Notes under the pieces: generated by a model
What the model was told of the DNA's origin: nothing
Database searches by the model: none
The model's input: only the letters and a program-made list of their open reading frames with translations
Assembly: GCA_000827205.1 (NCBI GenBank)
Contig: KN832562.1
Span: forward strand, 753,557 to 817,556
Reading direction: 5' to 3'
Length of the DNA stretch: 64,000 nt
From: Plicaturopsis crispa FD-325 SS-3
Taxonomy: Eukaryota > Basidiomycota > Agaricomycetes > Amylocorticiales > Amylocorticiaceae
Shown: positions 15,796-62,044 of the stretch, piece after piece
How positions within the stretch are numbered: position 1 is the first letter of the stretch
How the letters are laid out: every line of letters begins with the position of its first letter
Translations under genes and position numbers: made by a program

Positions 15796-16484
15796 CTAGA
15801 TGGCGATCCAACTTTCGACCGCTGCTTTGAATTTCGCATCGAGCTTCTTGCTCTCTCTAAGCAGTGCCTCGCCGCCAACCTTGGATGCCATGGTGGCACT
15901 AGGCAGGTCGAAAATGATCTTCGTACCCACGTATTCGCCAGTGACTTCATCGATGACCTCTTGGAGGAGGAAGTCCCAAGGCGCGTGCAAGGTGGCAGCG
16001 GCGTCATACTGCGCCATATTCTTGAGCACGGTGGGACTCCCGATGACAAACTTGCGTAGCTTGGGGCAGCCGGGGCGATAAGCATCGAGCCTGGACGCTC
16101 TGAGCTCAAAAAATTTCCGAAGGGACGATAGTGAGTATAATCACCCACCAATCCGCATGGTTTATCTCCATAAACCTGAAAAGTCCAGAGGGTTTCTCTG
16201 CCTTGCTCGCGGCCTCAGCGATGCATTTCTCGAAATCCTCTTGGGCAGAAATGCCGAAACCGCTTCTCATGGAGATTGGGTCGATGGGCATCTTGGCCGT
16301 CGTTGCTCGAACGGCTAGAACGATATCATCGAAAGGTTTTTTGCTGGTATAGATGCATCGCATGCCCTGCCATGCTAGGACGTTCGGGCCTGACACGTCA
16401 AAGGATAGCGAGCCGTTAGCAGTCCTGCACGGATATTACGAAGTGAGCCTCAATATAAAATACACGGCGAGAGGCGGCGTACAT
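15796..16484 (-). CDS. DUF302 domain protein 1, with intron-split start codon
   Basis: A 190-residue protein of the DUF302 (TTHA1732-like) family, whose biochemical role is unknown. Motifs include GMRCIYTSKKPFDDIVLAVR, the ISAQEDFEKCI segment, GLFRFMEINHADW, then PKLRKFVIGSPTVLKNM, LHAPWDFLLQEV, TKIIFDLPSATMAS and a VESWIAI tail. Exons: 16484-16483 (the A and T of the start), 16424-16149 and 16090-15796. The ATG is therefore split AT|G by an intron with a GTACGC donor and a GTGCAG acceptor. An upstream in-frame ATG at 16538 was not chosen because a TATATA box lies directly beside it, so it would precede the transcript. The second DUF302 gene in the window has exactly the same split and similar TATA spacing. 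Confidence 0.85.
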
Positions 16485-16541
16485 TTCGATGACGGTATGC
16501 AGAGGAGGACTGGAGAGTGATTTGACAACTGGAGACATGGT

Positions 16542-16549
16542 TTATATAG
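16542..16549 (-). promoter_or_regulatory. TATA box of DUF302 gene 1
   Basis: Minus-strand GCTATATAAA, with the TATATA beginning 64 bases before the split start codon. The counterpart in the second DUF302 gene lies 68 bases before its start. Confidence 0.6.
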
Positions 16550-42678: not shown

Positions 42679-44224
42679 CTAGTAGGGCGGACGTTTGAAC
42701 TCGTCGCTGATGACCTGCGCCTCGGCGTCGAAGTTGTCGCCCTTGATGACCTTCCCGTCCGCATCGTACTCTACCGAAGCGGGGCTCTCGAACGTCTCCA
42801 TCTACACGATATAGATCAGTAAGAGAAAACTGCGGGACAAGGGAAAGGACGTACGTGGACGTGGACACCGCTCGTGGAGAGGTCACTCGGCTTCTTGACG
42901 TTGACAGCCGGACGGGAACCGATGCCATTGCTACGGAACGCAAGCGTAGACCCCTGGGTAGATCTGCAGGATAATGAGTATACGGAACGGCACGAGGGGT
43001 GTACGGACGTACACGAAGAGCTCTGCGCCTTGCGTCGTGTAGTTTGTCAGGCGACGAACAGCGCGACATGCGACAATCTAGGGCGTGTTAACGAGGCATA
43101 TGCGACAAATTAGATGTACTTACAGTAGATGCAATAGCGGCCGGGACGTTTGCGATGATGGACATGACCGCATTGAGGTTCATCAGCATGAACGTCTGCA
43201 CAAAAGTTAAGACGAGCTTGCGGTGAATAACAAAGAGATTCTCACGGTGGCGAGGAGGTTGGACAAGAATGCGATGATGAAGAAGATGAGACCATCTCCG
43301 AAAATGAGCGAGACCAGTCGGGATTGCCCGCCTGGCTGGTTGTATGCCAATTTGTATGCCGTGAGTGTAAGCACGGTAAAATCGAATCTACGCGTCGAAG
43401 TGGTAAGAGGGGTGTGGGGCGCCGATGCCAACGGTGTACTCACGCCATAGTATAAATAAATGTGGCGGCGAGGAGGGTGTTGCTGGTCTCAGTGATGACA
43501 CAGCCCTCGCCCTCGACCCACGCGGCCTTCAAGAGAATGCCTATTATTGATTTGTTTAGCTGGGGGGACTTACGACCAGATGGATTTAACTAACCGTGGA
43601 GGAGGAGAGACCAGTGACCCATGATCACGGCGACGAGGGGCACGACCACGTACCATGCCTGCGACCAGACAGCCATGCTATGCACAATGTTAGATAGCGT
43701 ATGTGCATACGGAAGGAGATGCCTTACGTGCGAAGGGAAAGGTTGATGCTGGCGAACCCGATAGCGGCATTTCCAAGACACTGGTTGAACGTGTAAAGTG
43801 CCTGGCAGTTCACTTCCCTAGTGACATTCGACGCGATAGCACTGCAATATTGTTAGTTCAAGGTGTAATATCGGTGGCCCGCCGACTTACATGCCCATTA
43901 ATGCGAAGAGTAGACTGTAGCGGCCGAGGAAATAGAACATCATCGGCCATTTGAAACGTCTTTTCCCGGAGAGGAATTGCTGTAAAGCGCCACGGTGAGG
44001 ACGCGCACTTTTACTCGAGTTGGATGCAACGTAACATACCCAGTCGAAGGTCAAGGAGGTCGCCCACTCCCAGATGTACAGCCCAAGGAGCGCGTGCATC
44101 AGCTTGACTGTAGTTGAAATCCGTCAATACACACCGCAAAAACGCGTCGTTTTCGCGGGGGGAAGCGCGTACCAAATGCGGCGCTGTCGTTCGCGATCTC
44201 GGTGGGGGATTTCCAGTCGACCAT
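42679..44224 (-). CDS. Seven-helix membrane protein A (uncharacterised fungal family)
   Basis: A predicted integral membrane protein. From the start MVDWKSPTEIANDSAAF come seven hydrophobic segments, among them VKLMHALLGLYIWEWATSL, PMMFYFLGRYSLLFALMG, NAAIGFASINLSLRTMAVW, VVVPLVAVIMGHWSLLLHG, NTLLAATFIYTM, GLIFFIIAFLSNLLATV and the last ending in VACRAVRRLTNYT. The cytosolic-looking tail holds SGVHVHVETFESP and ends DEFKRPPY. About nine short exons. It is closely related to protein B (49,365-50,938), sharing every segment, several intron positions and the tail motif. I do not know a function; a receptor or transporter role would be guesswork. It is on the minus strand, with the second P450 between it and its paralogue. 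Confidence 0.8.
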
Positions 44225-49364: not shown

Positions 49365-50938
49365 ATGGTCAATTGGCAGTCATCCAGCGAGCTCATCAAA
49401 GATGAGAGTGAGTCGTGCCCGCCCCGTCTTCGCGTTAATATCCGATCTGACGCCTCTCCGAACATAGCTGCCTTCGTCAAATTACAGCATGCACTTCTGG
49501 GCCTGTATGCGTGCGTGCAAAGTTTTTGTGCCTTCCATTCTGCCTGTGCTTACTCGGCTTCGTGCAGATGGGAGTTCGTCATGTCGCTCGGCTTCGAGTG
49601 GGACTTCATCTCCGGGAAGAAAAAGTTCAAGTGGCCGATGGTACGTGGATTTTATGCAGTCGATCAAGAGGCGTATCTAATATGCTCTCCACAGATATTT
49701 TATTTTGCTGGTCGTTACTGCTTGTTGTTCTCTCTTATTGGAATGTAAGTGTCCCTGCGTTCCAAACAGTTGCACCCGAATTAACCCTCTCCCGCAGTGT
49801 TACCGCGTTTGATGTAACCGAGTGCGTTTTGCCTGGTGCTATATGTCAAGGCGAATCCATATGAACTGTCATATTCACAGAGAAATCAACTGTCAATCGT
49901 TGTTCATATTCAACCAACTTGCAGGCAACGCTGCCACCGGGTTCGCCTCGATCAATCTTTCCATTCGCACGTACGTCCCATCTCCTCTCGTTCTAGCCCT
50001 ACTGAAGTACTAACGCGCTATCATAGAATGGCCATCTGGGGCCAAAACCTGTATATCAAAGTCGGCCTAACCCTCATTATACTGGGCCACTGGTCTCTCA
50101 TTCTTCAGGGTATCCTCATGGAGGTCACATGGGTACGCCATACTGTTCATCTGTCGTTAATCGTGAGATTGACTTTGCTGCGACAGGTCGATGGCTCTGG
50201 CTGTGTCATCGTACACACAAATAACACCGTGCTCGCCGCGACGTTCATATACTCGATGGCCTTCGATGGCATCGTGCTCTGCCTGAACACATACAAGCTG
50301 GCGGTGACGGGCACCGGCAAGCGTAGTGGTGGCAGCAAACTTGGGAGACTGATCTTCGCCGACGGCATGATCTTCTTCTTCATTGCGTACGTGTATCTTC
50401 CCACTTTCCTCCTCGTGCAGAGGTGCTCATGTGTTCGTATTCCAGGTTCCTGTCCAACTTCCTCGCGACGGTGTTCATGCTATTAAATATGAACTCGGTC
50501 ATGAGCGTCATCTTCAACGTCCCCGCCGTTGTCGCATCAACAGTGCGTGCCCACCTTATCTACCCCTGCTCGCACGCTAACGCTCTCACCCCACGCAGAT
50601 CGTCGCATCGCGAGTCGTCCGCCGCCTCACAAACTTCACACACAACCCAGAAATTTAGTACGTATCGCCCCACACATTCCACCTCCACGCGCGGCGCTGA
50701 CCACATTGCACTTTGCAGCACCAAGTCCAGCTCCGCAACAGACGCGGTCGTGCGCACGGGCATCGCGCGCGGCACGGTGCCCGCGACGAAGACGGGCGTG
50801 CACGTGCAGATGGAGACGTTCACGCACGCGGAGCCCGAGCCCGACAGCCCGTACGACGCGCGACGCGTGAAGGACCTCGAGGCATACCACGAGTCCGACA
50901 AGAGCTCCGAGGTCGAGGAGTACAAGCCGCCATTTTGA
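49365..50938 (+). CDS. Seven-helix membrane protein B, paralogue of A
   Basis: Starts MVNWQSSSELIKDE and carries seven hydrophobic segments: VKLQHALLGLYAWEFVMSL, IFYFAGRYCLLFSLIG, NAATGFASINLSIRTMAIW, VGLTLIILGHWSLILQGIL, NTVLAATFIYSMAFDGIVL, GMIFFFIAFLSNFLATVFML and VIFNVPAVVASTIVASRVV. A FISGKKKFKWPM loop follows helix 1, as in A (SGKRRFKWPM). Tail has TGVHVQMETFTHAEPEPDSP and ends VEEYKPPF, again parallel to A. About ten exons, many split at the same places as A. An intron near 50,390-50,445 joins FFIAF to LSNFL. Family uncharacterised; function unknown. Divergent from the second P450. Confidence 0.82.
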
Positions 50939-51940
50939 TTTCGTGCGCTGTGTTGTGCTTTCGACTTTGCGGTGTAGGACTTTTCAATCTTCGTTCGGGG
51001 AGGGGTTTGTTGTGCATCTAGAGGGATGCGCGGAGAAGTATACTTACATATATTATAAAAGCGGAATTGGGCTGCATACTTACCTTGGGCACCGGTGTAG
51101 GCATAGCGAGGAGCAGAGCGTCGTATACCCACCTGTAACATATAATTACCCACCAAAAAATTACATATCACCTGCACAAAACAAAGCAATCGTTTATTTT
51201 GAGCTGATGTCATACACGCTCAGTGTTCGTGACTTACTGCGTGCGGCTTGACAGTAGTGACTTCAAGTTGACCCTGCCTTGTCAGGGGCAGTACGCCCAA
51301 TATAGCGAGGCGGTTGGTAGCCATTCGAAGGACGTTGCCAAACAAGACTAAGCAAATGGCGCCACCTCCACCACCGCCCACCATGCTCTTGACCGCCATG
51401 ATGACAACCTGGATATTCCTGCGGCAAACGATACATTTCATCCATAAGCGTGCTCTTGTTTCTTAATCCACGACAATGCAGGCAATTTGCAGGATCAGGT
51501 CTGCTTTTCATTCCTGTCTGTCATCCACACCGAAGCATTACGATGACGAAGAGTCTGACGCAGAACTGAGACAGTCGTGGAGTGGTCCTCTCTTCGTACG
51601 CAGAGGCACGGGCCACACGGGCTGAACAAGATCTCGGAGTCCTGTGGTTCCCGCACCATGACGCCACAATAATAAGAAGGGCCACGGCGTTCCGTGTGTT
51701 GCTTCCGCTTCCCATCTGTCCTCCATACTGGGGTCCAGCGGGACAGCGACAACTCCTGGTCATGGAGACAAGTATGACCATCGACGTCCACCGCCCTGCT
51801 TTGCGTCAGTCGGTGACGACGATCGACAACTCAGCTTGTTACTGCATGGTCTGATATAGGATGGGCTGCGGCTATATAAGCAGCGCCTCGAGACGAGGAC
51901 ATACCCAATTCAATACATCTGAAATCATCTCCAAATTAAA
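50939..51940. other. Intergenic region before the DUF302 pair
   Basis: About 1 kb. No gene recognised; the last 70 bases hold a TATA box for DUF302 gene 2. Confidence 0.45.
51873..51879 (+). promoter_or_regulatory. TATA box of DUF302 gene 2
   Basis: TATATAA inside GGCTATATAAGCAG, 68 bases before the split start codon; compare 64 bases in DUF302 gene 1. Confidence 0.65.
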
Positions 51941-52645
51941 ATGTACGTCCTGTCTCCTACACACTCTACTAGTGCTCACACTCAAGCACTGGCAATGCAC
52001 GCAGGACCACCACCACATCCAACTCTGTCTCCTTCGACGCGCCGGGCCCATACATCGGGGAATGGCGAGGCCAGCGGTGCACGTACACCACCAGGAAGCC
52101 GTTTGACAGTATTGTCGAGTCCATCCGGGCCACTACTGCACAGATGCCCGTCAGCCCTGCTCACATGAAGAGCGGCATCGGCGCATCCACCTCGGAGGAG
52201 TTCGAGCAGCGCATCAGCGAGGCCGCGAGCAAAACGGAGAGGCCCACGGGGCTCTTCTTGTTCACGGAGATTAACCACGCTGATTGGTGAGTAACCAAAA
52301 ACACATACTCCTCGGTAACATCGAAACCGTGCTGAATTTAACTTATTGTGCAGGCTTAACGCGTATTGTCCCGGTTGCCCGAAGCTGCATAAATTCATCA
52401 TCGGAAGTCCGACCGTGCTGAAGAACATGGCGCAGTACGACTACGCCGCAACTCTGCACGCGCCCTGGGACTTTTTGCTGCAGGAGGTTGTCGACGATAA
52501 AGGGAAGTACGTCGGCACGAAGGTGATCTTCGACTTGCCGAGTGCGACCATGGCATCCGCGATAGGCGGCGAGGCGTTGCATAGAGAGAGCAAGAAGCTG
52601 GACGCGAAATTCCAGGAGGCGGTTGAGAGTTGGATTGCGCTTTAG
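51941..52645 (+). CDS. DUF302 domain protein 2, with intron-split start codon
   Basis: A 191-residue DUF302 protein, close paralogue of gene 1. Exons: 51941-51942 (A and T of the start), 52005-52286 and 52354-52645. The intron begins GTACGT directly after AT and ends ACGCAG, and the next exon supplies G, giving MTTTTSNSVSFDAPGPYIGE. Conserved pieces: GQRCTYTTRKPFDSIVESIR, TSEEFEQRISEAASK, TGLFLFTEINHADW, PKLHKFIIGSPTVLKNM, LHAPWDFLLQEV, TKVIFDLPSATMAS and VESWIAL. The second intron is at the same place and phase as in gene 1 (within the Trp codon). No catalytic residue is known for DUF302. Gene 3 follows 313 bp downstream in tandem. Confidence 0.88.
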
Positions 52646-52958
52646 GTATGCGGTTTTTTGACCTTTGACGTGCTAGAATGATACTGACGATGTCACTAGA
52701 TTGTCTCGTACGAAATTGTGTCCATGAATATAATAGCAACTTGTTGTATCCTACATAGTCTGGACTTGCGAACATAATCAGCGCACAAGCACTAGTCGAA
52801 CTAGACTTTCCTGCTTTTGTCAGTGTTGCCGATCGAAACGTTTGCCTACGCCGCAGGTCGGTCATCTTATAGATAGCATCCCCGAGGTCACTCGCCCTTC
52901 GACACAATCTTTCTGAATTTTCTGATTCATAAAATTTAGACTCACAGAACAAAGTACG

Positions 52959-53472
52959 ATGCCTCGAGTCGAGATCTACACCGGCCAGCGATGCACATAC
53001 ACAACCTCGAAACCGTTCGACGAGGTCATCGCCAGCATCCGAACGTCTGTTCACACCGGCGAGTCCTTCATGTCGGTCGTGGAGGGGGGCACACCGCGCA
53101 GTGGATTATTTCTCATCACAGAATATGACCACGGCAAATGGTACATCGCGTGACTTAATACCTCATCCCCAAGATACTCAGTCAGTGCACCGCACATCCA
53201 GGTACAGAATACTCAAACCCGCCGCACCGCGGATACACAAATTCGTGATGGGCAACCCATTCGCGCTCGCGCGCATAATGCGGCAAGACGTCGCGGCGTG
53301 CCTTCACGCACCTCTGGACTTTCTGGTCATAGAGATCGACAGCGGGACGACGGAGATTGTTTTCGATCTTCCGAGCTCGATGATGGCGTCGGCGCGGGGC
53401 GGGGAGGCGCTGGCTGAAGCAGCTAGGATATCGGACGAGAAGGTGAAGGAGGCCGTCGCGGGATGGCTGTAG
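52959..53472 (+). CDS. DUF302 domain protein 3, shortened
   Basis: A 150-residue relative of the two other DUF302 proteins. Starts MPRVEIYTGQRCTYTTSKPF, so the N-terminal leader is missing and the start codon is whole. Exons 52959-53140 and 53202-53472; the intron splits the Trp codon of GKW exactly as in genes 1 and 2. The middle segment corresponding to DPISMRSGFG...EAASK is cut down to HTGESFMSVVEG. Core retained: LFLITEYDHGKW, IHKFVMGNPFALARIM, LHAPLDFLVIEI, TEIVFDLPSSMMAS, KEAVAGWL. Much more diverged than genes 1 and 2 from each other. It converges on the formyltransferase gene with 65 bp between stops. Confidence 0.82.
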
Positions 53473-53537: not shown

Positions 53538-55145
53538 TCAAAGGCCTGCCGCCCGGTCGCGTGCCTCCACCCTCTCCAGGAACTGATTCTTCTCAAAGGC
53601 GTCGCCATTTCGCAGGAAGCCAGTCCGGTCCCAAACCTTCTCCTTCGGCAAAAACGCGACGCCCTGGTCCCTATTTCCATCGACCGCCAGCTCCGGGCGC
53701 ACACCATTCCACCACTCTCTCGCTGAAATCCGATTCCGGCCCTCCTCTTTGACCTCGGGGACACGAAGGACGGTGTCGGAGGCGCAGCGAATCAAAAGGC
53801 CGGATGCACCATGACAGTAGGCAGCTACACCTACCCTGTTGAGGACGTGGAGGGGAAGGTCGGAGATGAGAGAAGCTTCCTGCGCAGTGTAGACTACCGG
53901 GGAATGGAGTTGGAGGTTTTTGTAGTTGGGTAGATACGTTTTGAGCGGCCGCTATGACCCAGTTTCAGTGGCGGGCTCGTGCATCCAAGAGGCGGCTTAC
54001 CTGGTGAGATATTGCACGATGCCGCCGTACGATTTCATGGGCGGACATGGTGAGGAAATCCACGATACTGTGATGATCGTTGATCATTGGCGCGAGCGGC
54101 GCCTCTGGATCGCGCTTTTGCGGTACTTTCTGGGCCTGACACATTGTCTGTCAGCATTTCAGACCACTGAACACATATTCCGACTTACTACACCCGATAA
54201 AGTATCACGGAGAACAGACGCAAGCAGTCTACCTCCTTCTCGCGCCAACACTGTCTGTAGCTCAGGATATGCAATATCATCTGAAATAGGCTGAAAGGAA
54301 TGCGTGCATGAGAAACATACAGATCACAGCTGGTATTTGGCTCACGATACGTGTCTGCGCGTAGATATCGCCAGTGTCGACGCCCATCTTTCGCTCATTT
54401 ATGTCGATGACGCAGACTCCTGTCTCCGCGTCTCCACGCATTATGGCGTGCTGTATGGGCGCGGCGCCCCGAAAGTCGGGCAGCAGGGAGGGATGCACGT
54501 TAAACCGGCGTGACGGGTGGAATAGTTTGAGTAGAGGGTCGAATATCATGCGTCCAAAGGAAGCAGTAACAATGACATGCGTAGGTGAATATGTCGATTG
54601 AAATGGCTCCGGGGGCTACAAAATATATGGCTTTAGAATGGATTTTGAGCAAGTGTCTTCGGCTGTCAGTACCTGCCATTGCCTGAAAGCCGATTTCGTA
54701 GGGGGGACAAGGTGTACAGGTATGTCGAGGGACTCCCCGAGCAGTCTCAATGGTGCTAGCAAGTTTTCAAGATACCTATAAGCAATGGTGATGAGAGAGA
54801 AATTAGAGAGGGCAAATGTACTCACATACATGAAGCGTGTCTCCGCGTCTACGAGGCTTAATATCTGGCAATGTGCCTATTGAGACACTTTGCCAAACAT
54901 CTGATTAATGTATTCAATTATGTGGTTCAGCGCCAGAGGAGAGATTTGGACGAACCGCGCGCGGCAAAGAGCTCCTCGAAGACATGACACGACATCACAT
55001 CCGAGCCAAAGAACAAGATTTTGAAAGGCTCTTGTGAGTTCTGAGTCTGTATTCGTCGTACATGGCGTATCCCATGGCATCGTAAAGTCCAGAGAGCGTT
55101 CCTGTGTGAACAGAGATGATGGATGGACATGGCAAGCTGGGCCAA
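53538..55145 (-). CDS. FMT1: Methionyl-tRNA formyltransferase, mitochondrial
   Basis: Formylates initiator Met-tRNA with 10-formyl-THF for mitochondrial translation. The N-terminal 35 residues ([19 protein letters not shown]...) are Arg-rich without acids, fitting a mitochondrial target peptide. Then [19 protein letters not shown] (first strand of the formyltransferase fold), [11 protein letters not shown], and the signature [20 protein letters not shown] with catalytic Asn and His, then [10 protein letters not shown]...[11 protein letters not shown] with catalytic Asp. The C-terminal OB-type part reads [20 protein letters not shown], followed by a [17 protein letters not shown] tail. About six exons. 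Start could be the second Met, five residues on. Confidence 0.9.
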
Positions 55146-57911: not shown

Positions 57912-59686
57912 TCAAGGAAACTCGCTGAGACGCAAGCATCGCGGCACCAAATCTTCGTCGGGAGTCATATCCGGATCATGGTCGAAACCCTGACGGGATA
58001 TCGAGGAGCGGCGGTGTAACCGAGACGGCCGTGGATCCCCATTGACGGACGGAGGGTCCATATGCTTGACGAGCGGCCACATCGGTATGTAGCATTGCTC
58101 CTGCAAAGCAAGACACGCGACGGTTAACAACAGAACGGACGGCGATCGGCACAGGAAAACGTACATCCCATGCGCACGACGGGTCGCAGCGCTCCCACAT
58201 AGCCCATCCGAGCCATGCTATCAGCTCCTCCAGATCACTGCGCCAGTGGGAGATCGCCGTACTCGCGTCCACGGCGTCCCCGGCACTGAGGATGTCGAGC
58301 GCATTGCCCAACACGCCCGTCGCGAATCCACAGAGCCTATCCAGCACGCCTTCGACAGCATACTTAAGACCCTGCTCCTGCAGCGTCAGCTGCAACCCAC
58401 CGAAATGGCCAGTGAACGCGTGAGTGCACTTATGATTCGCCTTTGCGAGCGACTCAGCCGTGCGGGCCGCGTCGACAAGGACTGTGGGTGCATCCACGTA
58501 GGGCATGACGAGCGCGAACGCGACTAGCCGTACGCGCGAGACGAGCGCAGTCGCATTCGCACCTGGCGGCGCGCCCTCCTCGAGAACGTGCCGCATCTCC
58601 GCGAGCCGGTCACCGTAGCGGTCCACCACCGCCTGTGCAATTGCACTCCAGTCTACGCCGCTACTGCGCCCCGCATTCCAGTCGTCAAGGGCCTGCTCGA
58701 GCTCCGTGCGCCATGCAACGATGTCCTCTTGTGAGAGGTCGAGCAGACGGTGCTTTCGCCGCGGGAGCGCGTTGCTCGCGGCAAGGGATGTGTACGCAGG
58801 TGAGTAGAACGAGACGAGGTGCTCGGGATGCGGGATGACACGCGCTTCAGGGACCGTATGGTGCCAGCTTGCGGCATGGTACATGGACCACCCAGCCTGT
58901 GCGACGTAGTCATTCCACGGCGGCTCGCCGTGTTCCGTGTCGCGCAGAGCGTAGGAGACGTTGGTGGCCCCGACGACACTGACGCCTTGCGCAAAGTCGC
59001 ACCAGAGGACCTCAAATGTCGCCTCCTCGCGCACGAATCCGTCGATGCTATGTTCCTTCGCCCATGCGCAGAGAATCTTGGCGCGCGCGTAGTCTGCCAT
59101 GCCGCCCGGTCCTTTGTTCGCGTCGCCGTACGCGAGGACGTCCTGCACATCTTGGGTGCCATCGTCAGTTTTAGCGGCAGAAAACCCGTCGAAGTAGAGC
59201 ACGCGGAGGGGGCGCGTAGCCGTGTAAGTCCACAACGTTCTGTTCGACGGGTTTGGTGTAGGGAACACAGGTAGGAGTGAATGTCGACTTACTGGTGGCG
59301 CTTCCACGAAAATATAAAGCTATGCTCGGCATCTAAGCTACCACGAGCGAATGGGTCTTAGCTGGATGATGTTCGGTGCACGGGATGGGGACGTACGCGA
59401 ACCACTCAAACCCCGAGGTAGGTGGGCCCGAGTCACCCGAGCCAGTGTGATACAACAGCGTCCCAGGTCGGATAGTCGCTGGTACCACCGCATGCCCTTT
59501 ATCCGCGAACGCCTGAGACCAGGAGCGTAGCAGAGAGTGTAAAGACGCGAAAATCAAATTCGAGTTGTCCGTCTGCGTAGTGGTGTTGGTGGATAACACA
59601 ACTTGCGGCAATGACCTCGCGGCAACGATGGAACCCGTTATGGCACAAAACGAGTAGAGAAGGAACAGCATGACTCCTCCATGCAT
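57912..59686 (-). CDS. Secreted protein of unknown function, tandem copy A
   Basis: About 560 residues. Signal peptide after MHGGVMLFLLYSFCAITGSI. Then NLIFASLHSLLRSWSQAFAD, GHAVVPATIRPGTLLYHTG, WTYTATRPLRVLYFDGFSAA, GFVREEATFEVLWCDF, SMYHAASWHHTVPEARVIPH, HLVSFYSPAYTSLAASNALP and C-terminal WAMWERCDPSCAWDEQCYIP. Four exons; the last junction (GTACGT...TTTGCAG) gives CAWD|EQCYIP. I recognise a family that seems confined to basidiomycetes with no known domain. The REEATFEVLWCDF and GWAMWERCDPSC stretches are the most conserved between the copies. Several Cys may form disulphides. Copy B lies upstream, 2.3 kb away, on the same strand. Confidence 0.8.
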
Positions 59687-60212
59687 CCTGCACTCGTCCC
59701 GCATTATCCTATGGAGCAATAATGGCTCTGGCAGGACTATGGTAGTGAATGACTGCGGCGGTGTTGATCACAGTGGGAGCGTATCATAGTGGGCCTGTCA
59801 TGACACAGCCTCGGCAGGCCGCGGGCCGACATCCTGCTGCTGCAGACGCGTTCAAGGTGCCAGGAAGTCGCCTGTAGAAAATGACCATATAGTGTAGTAA
59901 GGCAAGAGCATTGAGGAAAACAGGAATAGCATAGATACTTACTCGTTTGTCGATAGAGGTGGTGACCGTGGTGGTCAGAGAGGATGAAGCGTGCTTGAAC
60001 AGTATACGTATTACTATACTCATGATCACTGTCAACACACTCTGCCTCGAGTTTCCTCGTCATTTCATTCAAAAATCCTCAGCTACGCGCACACTCGTAG
60101 ACTAGGGGACAGGATGTATACGTTTACATCCTAGGGGAAACTCCTCCGCAGGATCGACTTCCAGATAAATGAAGACCGTCACATCTATGATGAACATTGC
60201 CCATAAGATAAA
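59687..60212. other. Spacer between the tandem copies, itself duplicated
   Basis: About 530 bp. Its 5' flank portion (59,810-60,000) resembles that of copy B (62,160-62,350), including a GTCGAxAGGTGGTGGTGACCGT-like stretch, and its 3' flank near 60,133-60,210 is nearly the same as 57,836-57,911 after copy A. Confidence 0.6.
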
Positions 60213-62044
60213 TCAAGGAAACTCGCTCATACGCAAGCATCGCGGAACCAAATCCTCGTCGTCGGGAATTGTATCCAAGCCATGGTCGAAACCACGACTG
60301 GACATCGAAGACCGGCGGTATAGATGAGACAGCCGCGTGTCTCCATTGAGGGACAGCCTGAGAGGGTCCATATGCTTGACGAGCGGCCACATCGGTATGT
60401 AGCATTGCTCCTGCACAGCAAAACACGCGACGGTTAACGAGAAAATAGGACGGCGATCGGCAAAGAAAAACGTACATCCCATGCGCACGACGGGTCGCAG
60501 CGCTCCCACATGGCCCATCCGAGCCACGCCATCAGCACCTCGAGATCACTGCGCCAGCGGGAAATCGCAGTATTCGCGTCCACCGCGTCCCCGGCACTGA
60601 GGATGTCGAGCGCATTGCCTAACACGCCCGTCGCAAATCCACAGAGCCTATCCAGCACACCTTCGACTGCATGCTTCAGACCCCGCTCCTGCGGCGTCAG
60701 CTGCAACCCACCGAAATGGCCGGTAAACGCATAAGTGCATTTATAGTTCGCCTTTGCGAGCGATTCGACCGTGCGAGCCGTGTCGACGAGGACTGTGGGT
60801 GCATCCACGTAGGGCATAGCCAGCGCGAATGCGATTAGCCGTACGCGCGAGACGAGCGCGGTCGCATTGGCCCCTGGCGTCGCGCCCTCCTCAAGAACGT
60901 GCCGCATCTCTGCGAGCCGGTCGCCATAACGGTCGACCACCGCCTGTGCGATTGCGCTCCAGTCTGCGCCGCTGCTGCGCCCCGCATTCCAGTCGCCGAA
61001 CGCCTGTCCAAGCTCGGCATGCCATGTGGCGATGTCCTCGCGCGAGAGGTCGAGCAGACGGTGCTTGCGCCGCGGGAGGGCGTTGTTCGCGGCTAGGGAT
61101 GTATAGACCGGTGAGTAGAACGAGACGAGGTGTTCGGGATGCGGGATGACACGCTTCTCCGGGACTGTATGGTGCCAGCTCGCCGCGTGGTACATGGACC
61201 ACTTGGCCTGGCCGCGGTATTCATTCCGTGGCGTGTCTGCCAATTCCATCTCTATAGGACCTTGTACGCCGGCGTGATCTAAAGGAAAATCTTGGGGCGA
61301 GGCATAGGACACATTGGTTGCAGCGACGGTCGCGACGCCCTCCCGGAAATCGCACCAAAGGAGCTCGAATGTCGCTTCTTCGCGCACAAACCCTTCGATG
61401 CCGTATTGTTTGGCCCACTCACAAAGTCCCTTCGCGCGCCCAATATCCAGCCAGCCGCCGGGCCCCTTGTTCGCGTCGCCGTACGCGATGACATCTTGCA
61501 AGTCGAGGGTGCCGCCATTGGATTTCGCTGCAGAGAACCCGTCGAAGTATAGTACGCGGAGAGGGCGCGTGGCGGTGAATGTCCACATTGTACTGTAGGC
61601 GTCCCATGGGCGTTCACATCTGCAAGACGGGTCCGCATACCGACTTACTGGGTCTCTAAAGCACGCTCCATCCACGAGAATATATAGCTATGCTCTGCAT
61701 CAAACCTGCCGAGGGCCAACAAGTTAGCGAGAGTACGGTCGAGGCAGAACTGGCACGCACGCAAACCACTCGAATCCCTTGGTAGGTGGACCCGCATCCG
61801 CTAAACCGGTGTGATACAACAGCGTCCCCGGTCGGATAGTCGCTGGCACCACCGCGTGGCCTTTATCCGCGAACGCCTGCGACCAGGAGCGTAGAAGAGA
61901 GTGCAATGACGCGAATATTAGATTCGAATTGTCCGTCTGCGTAGTGGTGTTGGCAGATAACACAGCCTGTGGCAAAGACCTGGCGGAGACGATGGACCAC
62001 AAGATGGTGCTAAACGTGTAGAGAAGCATGCCTGCGCCGCGCAT
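60213..62044 (-). CDS. Secreted protein of unknown function, tandem copy B
   Basis: About 580 residues, start MRGAGMLLYTFSTILWSIVS (signal peptide). Matches copy A along its whole length, e.g. NLIFASLHSLLRSWSQAFAD identical, GHAVVPATIRPGTLLYHTG identical, WTFTATRPLRVLYFDGFSAA, GFVREEATFELLWCDF and WAMWERCDPSCAWDEQCYIP. It carries about 14 extra residues after NVSYASPQDFP and slightly longer final Leu/Ser segment (DPLRLSLNGDTRLSH). Exons: 62044 to about 61,763, a short exon with FDAEHSYIFSWMERALET, a long exon, and a last exon starting EQCYIP. Not obviously degraded: both copies keep open frames and splice sites. It diverges from the small gene at 62,527. Confidence 0.8.

Follow-up and report, generated by a model that had tools for sequence, protein, structure and literature searches.

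Two paralogous genes with a predicted intron inside the start codon

How does an intron come to divide the start codon in two related genes, and does it do anything there that another intron would not? The question is raised by a window of 64,000 nucleotides, positions 753557-817556 of contig 9 in an assembly of 33.2 Mb and 49 contigs, which contains three related DUF302-type genes. According to the original prediction, two of them share a start codon split as AT/G (the slash marks the exon boundary), this arrangement predates their duplication and may be useful, and the third paralogue has lost it. We consider it very probable that the intron is an ordinary U2-type GT-AG intron that interrupts the initiator codon at phase 2 in both genes, that it was inherited, and that it is most likely spliced constitutively.

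The three paralogues and their predicted split codons

Gene 2 lies at 51941-52645 on the plus strand, gene 3 at 52959-53472 on the plus strand and gene 1 at 16484-15796 on the minus strand. Their features are as follows.

51873..51879, plus: TATATAA, probable TATA box of gene 2, starting 68 nt before AT/G
51941..51942, plus: AT of the predicted split start codon of gene 2, the only coding bases of exon 1, with an in-frame stop upstream
51943..52004, plus: predicted intron 1 of gene 2, 62 nt, GTACGT...CGCAG, phase 2 (from the de novo gene model and shuffles)
52005..52286, plus: exon 2 of gene 2, opening with the G of the start codon (52005)
52287..52353, plus: predicted intron 2 of gene 2, 67 nt, inside a Trp codon (TG/G)
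52354..52645, plus: exon 3 of gene 2, stop TAG at 52643-52645
16542..16548, minus: TATATAA, probable TATA box of gene 1, starting 64 nt before AT/G
16536..16538, minus: alternative in-frame unsplit ATG of gene 1, adding 18 residues
16483..16484, minus: AT of the predicted split codon of gene 1
16425..16482, minus: predicted intron 1 of gene 1, 58 nt, GTACGC...TGCAG, phase 2
16149..16424, minus: exon 2 of gene 1, first base G (16424)
16091..16148, minus: predicted intron 2 of gene 1, 58 nt, in a Trp codon (TG/G)
15796..16090, minus: exon 3 of gene 1, including the stop
52959..53472, plus: gene 3 (DUF302), unsplit ATG, one predicted intron at 53141-53201, 61 nt, in a Trp codon (TG/G)

The proteins of genes 1 and 2 are 71% identical, and their identities to gene 3 are 37% (gene 1) and 42% (gene 2). 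Gene 3 matches DUF302 (PF03625) with a Pfam E-value of 1.2e-5, and in the genome search its score of 25.4 bits exceeded the curated cut-off. Genes 1 and 2 had no match to any Pfam family, DUF302 included, at E-values up to 1; their predicted products are DUF302-like by homology to gene 3 only. When the proteins of genes 2 and 3 were searched against the assembly, outside its N-masked stretches, each gave six matches, all of them exons of genes 1-3, and no fourth paralogue was found. We also considered a segmental duplication of the surroundings and rejected it: in a blastp comparison of the predicted proteins of the window at E-values up to 1e-5, genes 1-3 were linked only to one another. A PDB profile search gave three matches, none of use (best E 0.17). 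The IMG/VR contigs yielded one pattern stretch and the GTDB genomes yielded 57, with no confirmed relative in either set.

The anatomy of the split is the same in both genes. Gene 2 reads AAAAT, then the 62-nt intron, then GACCACC, and gene 1 reads CGAAAT, then the 58-nt intron, then GACTGC. The original prediction had described the same AT/G split, the same phase, GTACG[TC] donors and TATA spacings of 68 versus 64 nt, and all of this was confirmed, with the exact coordinates listed above and phase 2 in both genes. The predicted proteins open MTTTTSNSVSFDAPGP and MTANGSLSFDVSGP. The predicted N-terminus of gene 2 is MTTTTSNSVSFD.., and that of gene 1 is MTANGSLSFD.. when read from AT/G or MSPVVKSL.. 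when read from an upstream ATG; directly after the junction the proteins of the two genes are similar (M-T..S-x-SFD..GP). In gene 2, a stop codon in the same frame lies 21 nt before the AT, and the first other in-frame ATG in the exon does not occur before residue 48. Therefore, an unsplit start in gene 2 would drop the conserved GQRCTYTT block. Judged by the sequence, the predicted intron of gene 2 falls inside the codon used for initiation. Neither gene carries a phase 0 start codon intron (ATG/), as both introns are at phase 2.

The intron itself appears to be of an ordinary kind. Its donors, GTACGT and GTACGC, account for 41 and 21, respectively, of the 414 predicted introns in our genome sample, the acceptors are CAG, and the lengths of 58 and 62 nt are typical of the genome, in which the median predicted intron is 56 nt. 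Such short introns, together with the original prediction, make a fungus the probable source. By donor, acceptor and length, it is a predicted U2-type GT-AG spliceosomal intron. Given that GTACG[CT] donors are common here (62/414), the donor type adds no extra evidence. GCTCAC is aligned in both first introns, short of the full CTRAY branch-site motif. A TATAWA motif at 60-69 nt was matched four times in 90 genes, compared with 0.27 expected per bin; however, genes 1 and 2 themselves supply three of these four matches, so that this enrichment is hardly independent support.

Chance, gene prediction and the upstream ATG of gene 1

The 170 nt that precede the conserved core of each gene were shuffled 5000 times per gene, with dinucleotide composition retained. 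An in-frame AT/GTRNGY..YAG/G was regained in 0/5000 shuffles for gene 1 and in 0/5000 for gene 2, and when each of the 16 dinucleotides was substituted for AT, AT alone gave a match in both genes. We also searched the 33.2-Mb assembly (N-masked stretches outside the search) with the pattern AAATGTACGY-N32-60-GCAGGAC, which was matched exactly twice, at genes 1 and 2, and the reversed control pattern was matched nowhere in the assembly. This composite pattern was derived from both genes, and its result is a measure of uniqueness, not of match. The AT/G arrangement in both genes is more than chance.

We applied a home-made, self-trained gene model to 264,000 bases that took in the window and contained 14,142 N; it predicted 92 genes. 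The model picked the split start of gene 2 de novo when the prior for split starts was 0.01 and above. When split starts were forbidden, the start of gene 2 was moved to 52144 and the conserved N-terminus was lost; in practice, gene finders that accept only an unbroken ATG in exon 1 will put this start in the wrong place. At priors of 0.01, 0.05, 0.2 and 1, the model made 2, 3, 5 and 5 AT/G calls, respectively. For 14 sham triplets the mean numbers of calls at these priors were 0.14, 0.36, 0.79 and 1.79, with single sham triplets reaching 1, 2, 3 and 3. There was no A/TG call at any prior, and nine X/YZ shams gave up to four false calls each. Apart from genes 1 and 2, the three further AT/G candidates are predicted genes at 53538-54831 of the window (minus strand) and in the sampled sequences L019 and L022. 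The intron density in the genome sample was 0.0034 per coding base; by simple arithmetic, uniform intron placement would put an intron at a given position in approximately 0.3% of genes, or tens genome-wide. The sample of 92 genes is too small for a firm figure of the split-start rate.

Two of these further candidates have features of their own. In L022 (529-1861, plus strand), a gene that is hydrolase-like by eye, the model started at AT/G with the donor GTGCAT at five of five priors, and this is a possible further split start. The gene at 53538-54831 (minus strand) is of the formyltransferase type (Formyl_trans_N, 6.2e-22) and convergent with gene 3; here the model started at AT/G at priors of 0.1 and above, perhaps as a truncated model.

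It might be supposed that genes 1 and 2 acquired their introns in two independent gains, or that they share an illusion of gene prediction, so that there is no inherited start-codon intron. The splicing of these genes is predicted from sequence, and the five AT/G calls made at the flat prior compare with a sham mean of 1.79 (range 0-3), so that single calls include false positives. However, the absence of any success among 5000 shuffles for each gene, and the occurrence of the motif at exactly two sites in 33.2 Mb, both of them in paralogues, argue against either version, and we regard this explanation as extremely improbable.

An in-frame ATG that the original prediction had overlooked needs to be weighed in gene 1. 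It lies at 16538, 54 nt upstream of the split codon, with a stop just upstream of it and 18 open codons leading down to the split codon; TATATAA begins only 10 nt before it. Gene 1 could thus be translated from this ATG, which would turn its split codon into an internal Met and leave gene 2 as the only true case of a split start. The open, in-frame extension of 18 codons is consistent with this, and the gene model chose ATG 16538 at a split-start prior of 0.01, although that prior already exceeds the rate of approximately 0.3% expected from uniform intron placement. At priors of 0.05, 0.1, 0.2 and 1 the model chose AT/G. Transcription normally begins farther than 10 nt from the start of a TATA box, which speaks against so near an ATG. 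This argument is not absolute, because one other predicted gene (L012) has TATAAAGA, a TATA-like site, only 9 nt before its start, and such closeness is thus possible. Gene 2 carries an in-frame stop in the stretch that matches the extension of gene 1, and the spacings from TATA to AT/G agree between the genes (64 and 68 nt). Given that ATG 16538 is nearer to TATATAA than is usual for transcription to begin and that gene 2 has this stop, AT/G is favoured as the start of gene 1, and we consider translation from the upstream ATG unlikely.

Ancestry of the split codon

The arrangement is conserved between genes 1 and 2, which have long been separate at the nucleotide level. At four-fold degenerate sites, 22/62 are identical between the two genes, and 20 of the other 40 differ by a transversion. 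The intron interiors are not significantly alike, since 94/1000 shuffles were as good for intron 1 and 263/1000 for intron 2. Whole introns with their ends are significantly alike, with only 2/1000 (intron 1) and 5/1000 (intron 2) shuffles as good. The few identical four-fold sites and the dissimilar intron interiors therefore suggest that the splice signals have been kept over a long divergence. What we have is a clean, checkable split start codon, kept in two copies despite long synonymous divergence.

The simplest reading is that the AT/G intron of genes 1 and 2 most likely came from one common ancestral gene. The original claim that the arrangement predates the duplication stands to this extent, on the same position and phase, a flanking protein that is 71% identical and the four-fold sites, but its age and polarity rest on three paralogues. 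It has most likely been held for a long time, as would be the case for any intron that requires splicing.

Upstream of the genes, the 250-nt stretches (51691-51940, plus; 16734-16485, minus) align better than 1000/1000 shuffles, and a shared stretch near TCCAGCGG.ACA.CGA.A.CTC is a candidate common promoter element. The stretch from TATA to ATG is not clearly alike between genes 1 and 2 (52/1000 shuffles as good).

The claim that the third paralogue lost the intron fared less well. In the alignment, residue 16 of gene 2 faces the ATG of gene 3. In-frame stops precede this ATG, and gene 3 has no counterpart of the N-terminal segment found after the intron in the other two genes. Gene 3 therefore starts at a different homologous position, and it may never have had the intron, because the very segment following the intron is missing. 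Either a loss of the intron and the segment in gene 3 or a gain of both in genes 1 and 2 would account for this difference. The position of intron 2, inside a Trp codon (TG/G), is common to all three paralogues given gap-free splicing of gene 3; the gene 3 intron at 53141-53201 was placed by hand for a gap-free protein alignment, and the gene model put the junction elsewhere. Directly before the ATG of gene 3 (aaaGTACGATG) lies GTACG (52954-52958), the same five donor bases, either by chance or as a relic.

Splicing, function and known start-codon introns

In both genes, removal of the intron would join the AUG to the DUF302-like frame. The donor G would complete the AUG, so that an AUG would exist both before and after splicing; splicing would alter the frame after the AUG and would not create the start codon. 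When the unspliced RNA is read from the same AUG, a stop follows after 22 codons in gene 1 and after 75 codons in gene 2, and we infer that such RNA would probably be degraded by nonsense-mediated decay. Splicing of the intron is most likely constitutive, presumably with no regulation.

The suggestion that the arrangement is useful, since unspliced RNA cannot make the protein, is literally true. However, the second intron (58, 67 and 61 nt in genes 1, 2 and 3) breaks the frame likewise in every paralogue, and AT/GT keeps the AUG. Therefore, this argument gives the split start no special role, and the case for the AT/G intron as a functional switch is weak. In such a switch, the growth state would control AT/G splicing, and retention would silence both paralogues together. 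With lengths of 58 and 62 nt, the retained introns would indeed break the reading frame of genes 1 and 2, and the alignable 250-nt upstream regions (0/1000 shuffles as good) make co-regulation at some level plausible. Against this, there is no significant similarity between the intron interiors, the peptides of the retained frames are unlike (22 versus 75 codons), the donors are of a type common in the genome, and intron 2 would give an equal on/off effect in all three genes. In Yarrowia lipolytica, moreover, the introns near the start codon are those reported to be spliced most efficiently (PMC13309789). We thus consider a regulated switch very unlikely, while noting that regulated retention would be invisible to a test based on sequence, as ours is. 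A kept regulatory device, in which one AUG would serve either the DUF302-like protein or a short decoy frame and the ratio would be set by co-splicing of both paralogues, we regard as highly improbable. If such introns were proven to be regulated, they would offer an elegant example of two frames served by a single AUG.

Introns that disrupt the start codon have been reported as a relatively rare class (Nielsen and Wernersson 2006, PMC1626468), so that the word 'unusual' in the original prediction was fair. The present introns resemble the start-codon-disrupting introns of that report (phase 1 or 2, codon 1) in being at phase 2 of codon 1, in a gene for a short protein; they differ in that two paralogues share the intron, a pairing with no counterpart in the part of that paper available to us. 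The same source reports that phase 0 start codon introns (ATG/) are over-represented in ribosomal protein genes. These also stand where the coding sequence begins, but they fall between codons 1 and 2 and leave the ATG whole, whereas the codon is split here. In RNA-seq data from Yarrowia lipolytica, 42/2421 introns had a 5' splice site that fell inside the start codon or immediately behind it (PMC13309789); splicing efficiency was reported to be highest near the start codon, and the expression of such genes to be high and stable, in favour of the constitutive splicing that we prefer here. The introns described here likewise have the 5' splice site within the start codon. However, the Yarrowia count pools A/, AT/ and ATG/ from RNA-seq, whereas ours concerns AT/G only, as predicted from the genome, and Yarrowia belongs to another phylum if the Agaricomycetes placement of the present organism is right. 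An engineered split start codon has also been used (PMC12363958). Our literature search for split or interrupted start codons returned no study devoted to natural ones, the class being covered, as far as these sources were available to us, in PMC1626468 and PMC13309789. The intron position is thus already described, and the pair of paralogues makes the present case well supported, not surprising.

The window also contains other pairs of related genes. Two tandem predicted proteins at 57912-59671 and 60102-62029 (minus strand) are 78% identical, and the first 259 residues of one of them have no Pfam match at E-values up to 1. The predicted proteins at 42679-44224 (minus strand) and 49365-50938 (plus strand), which are membrane-protein-like by eye, are 55% identical.
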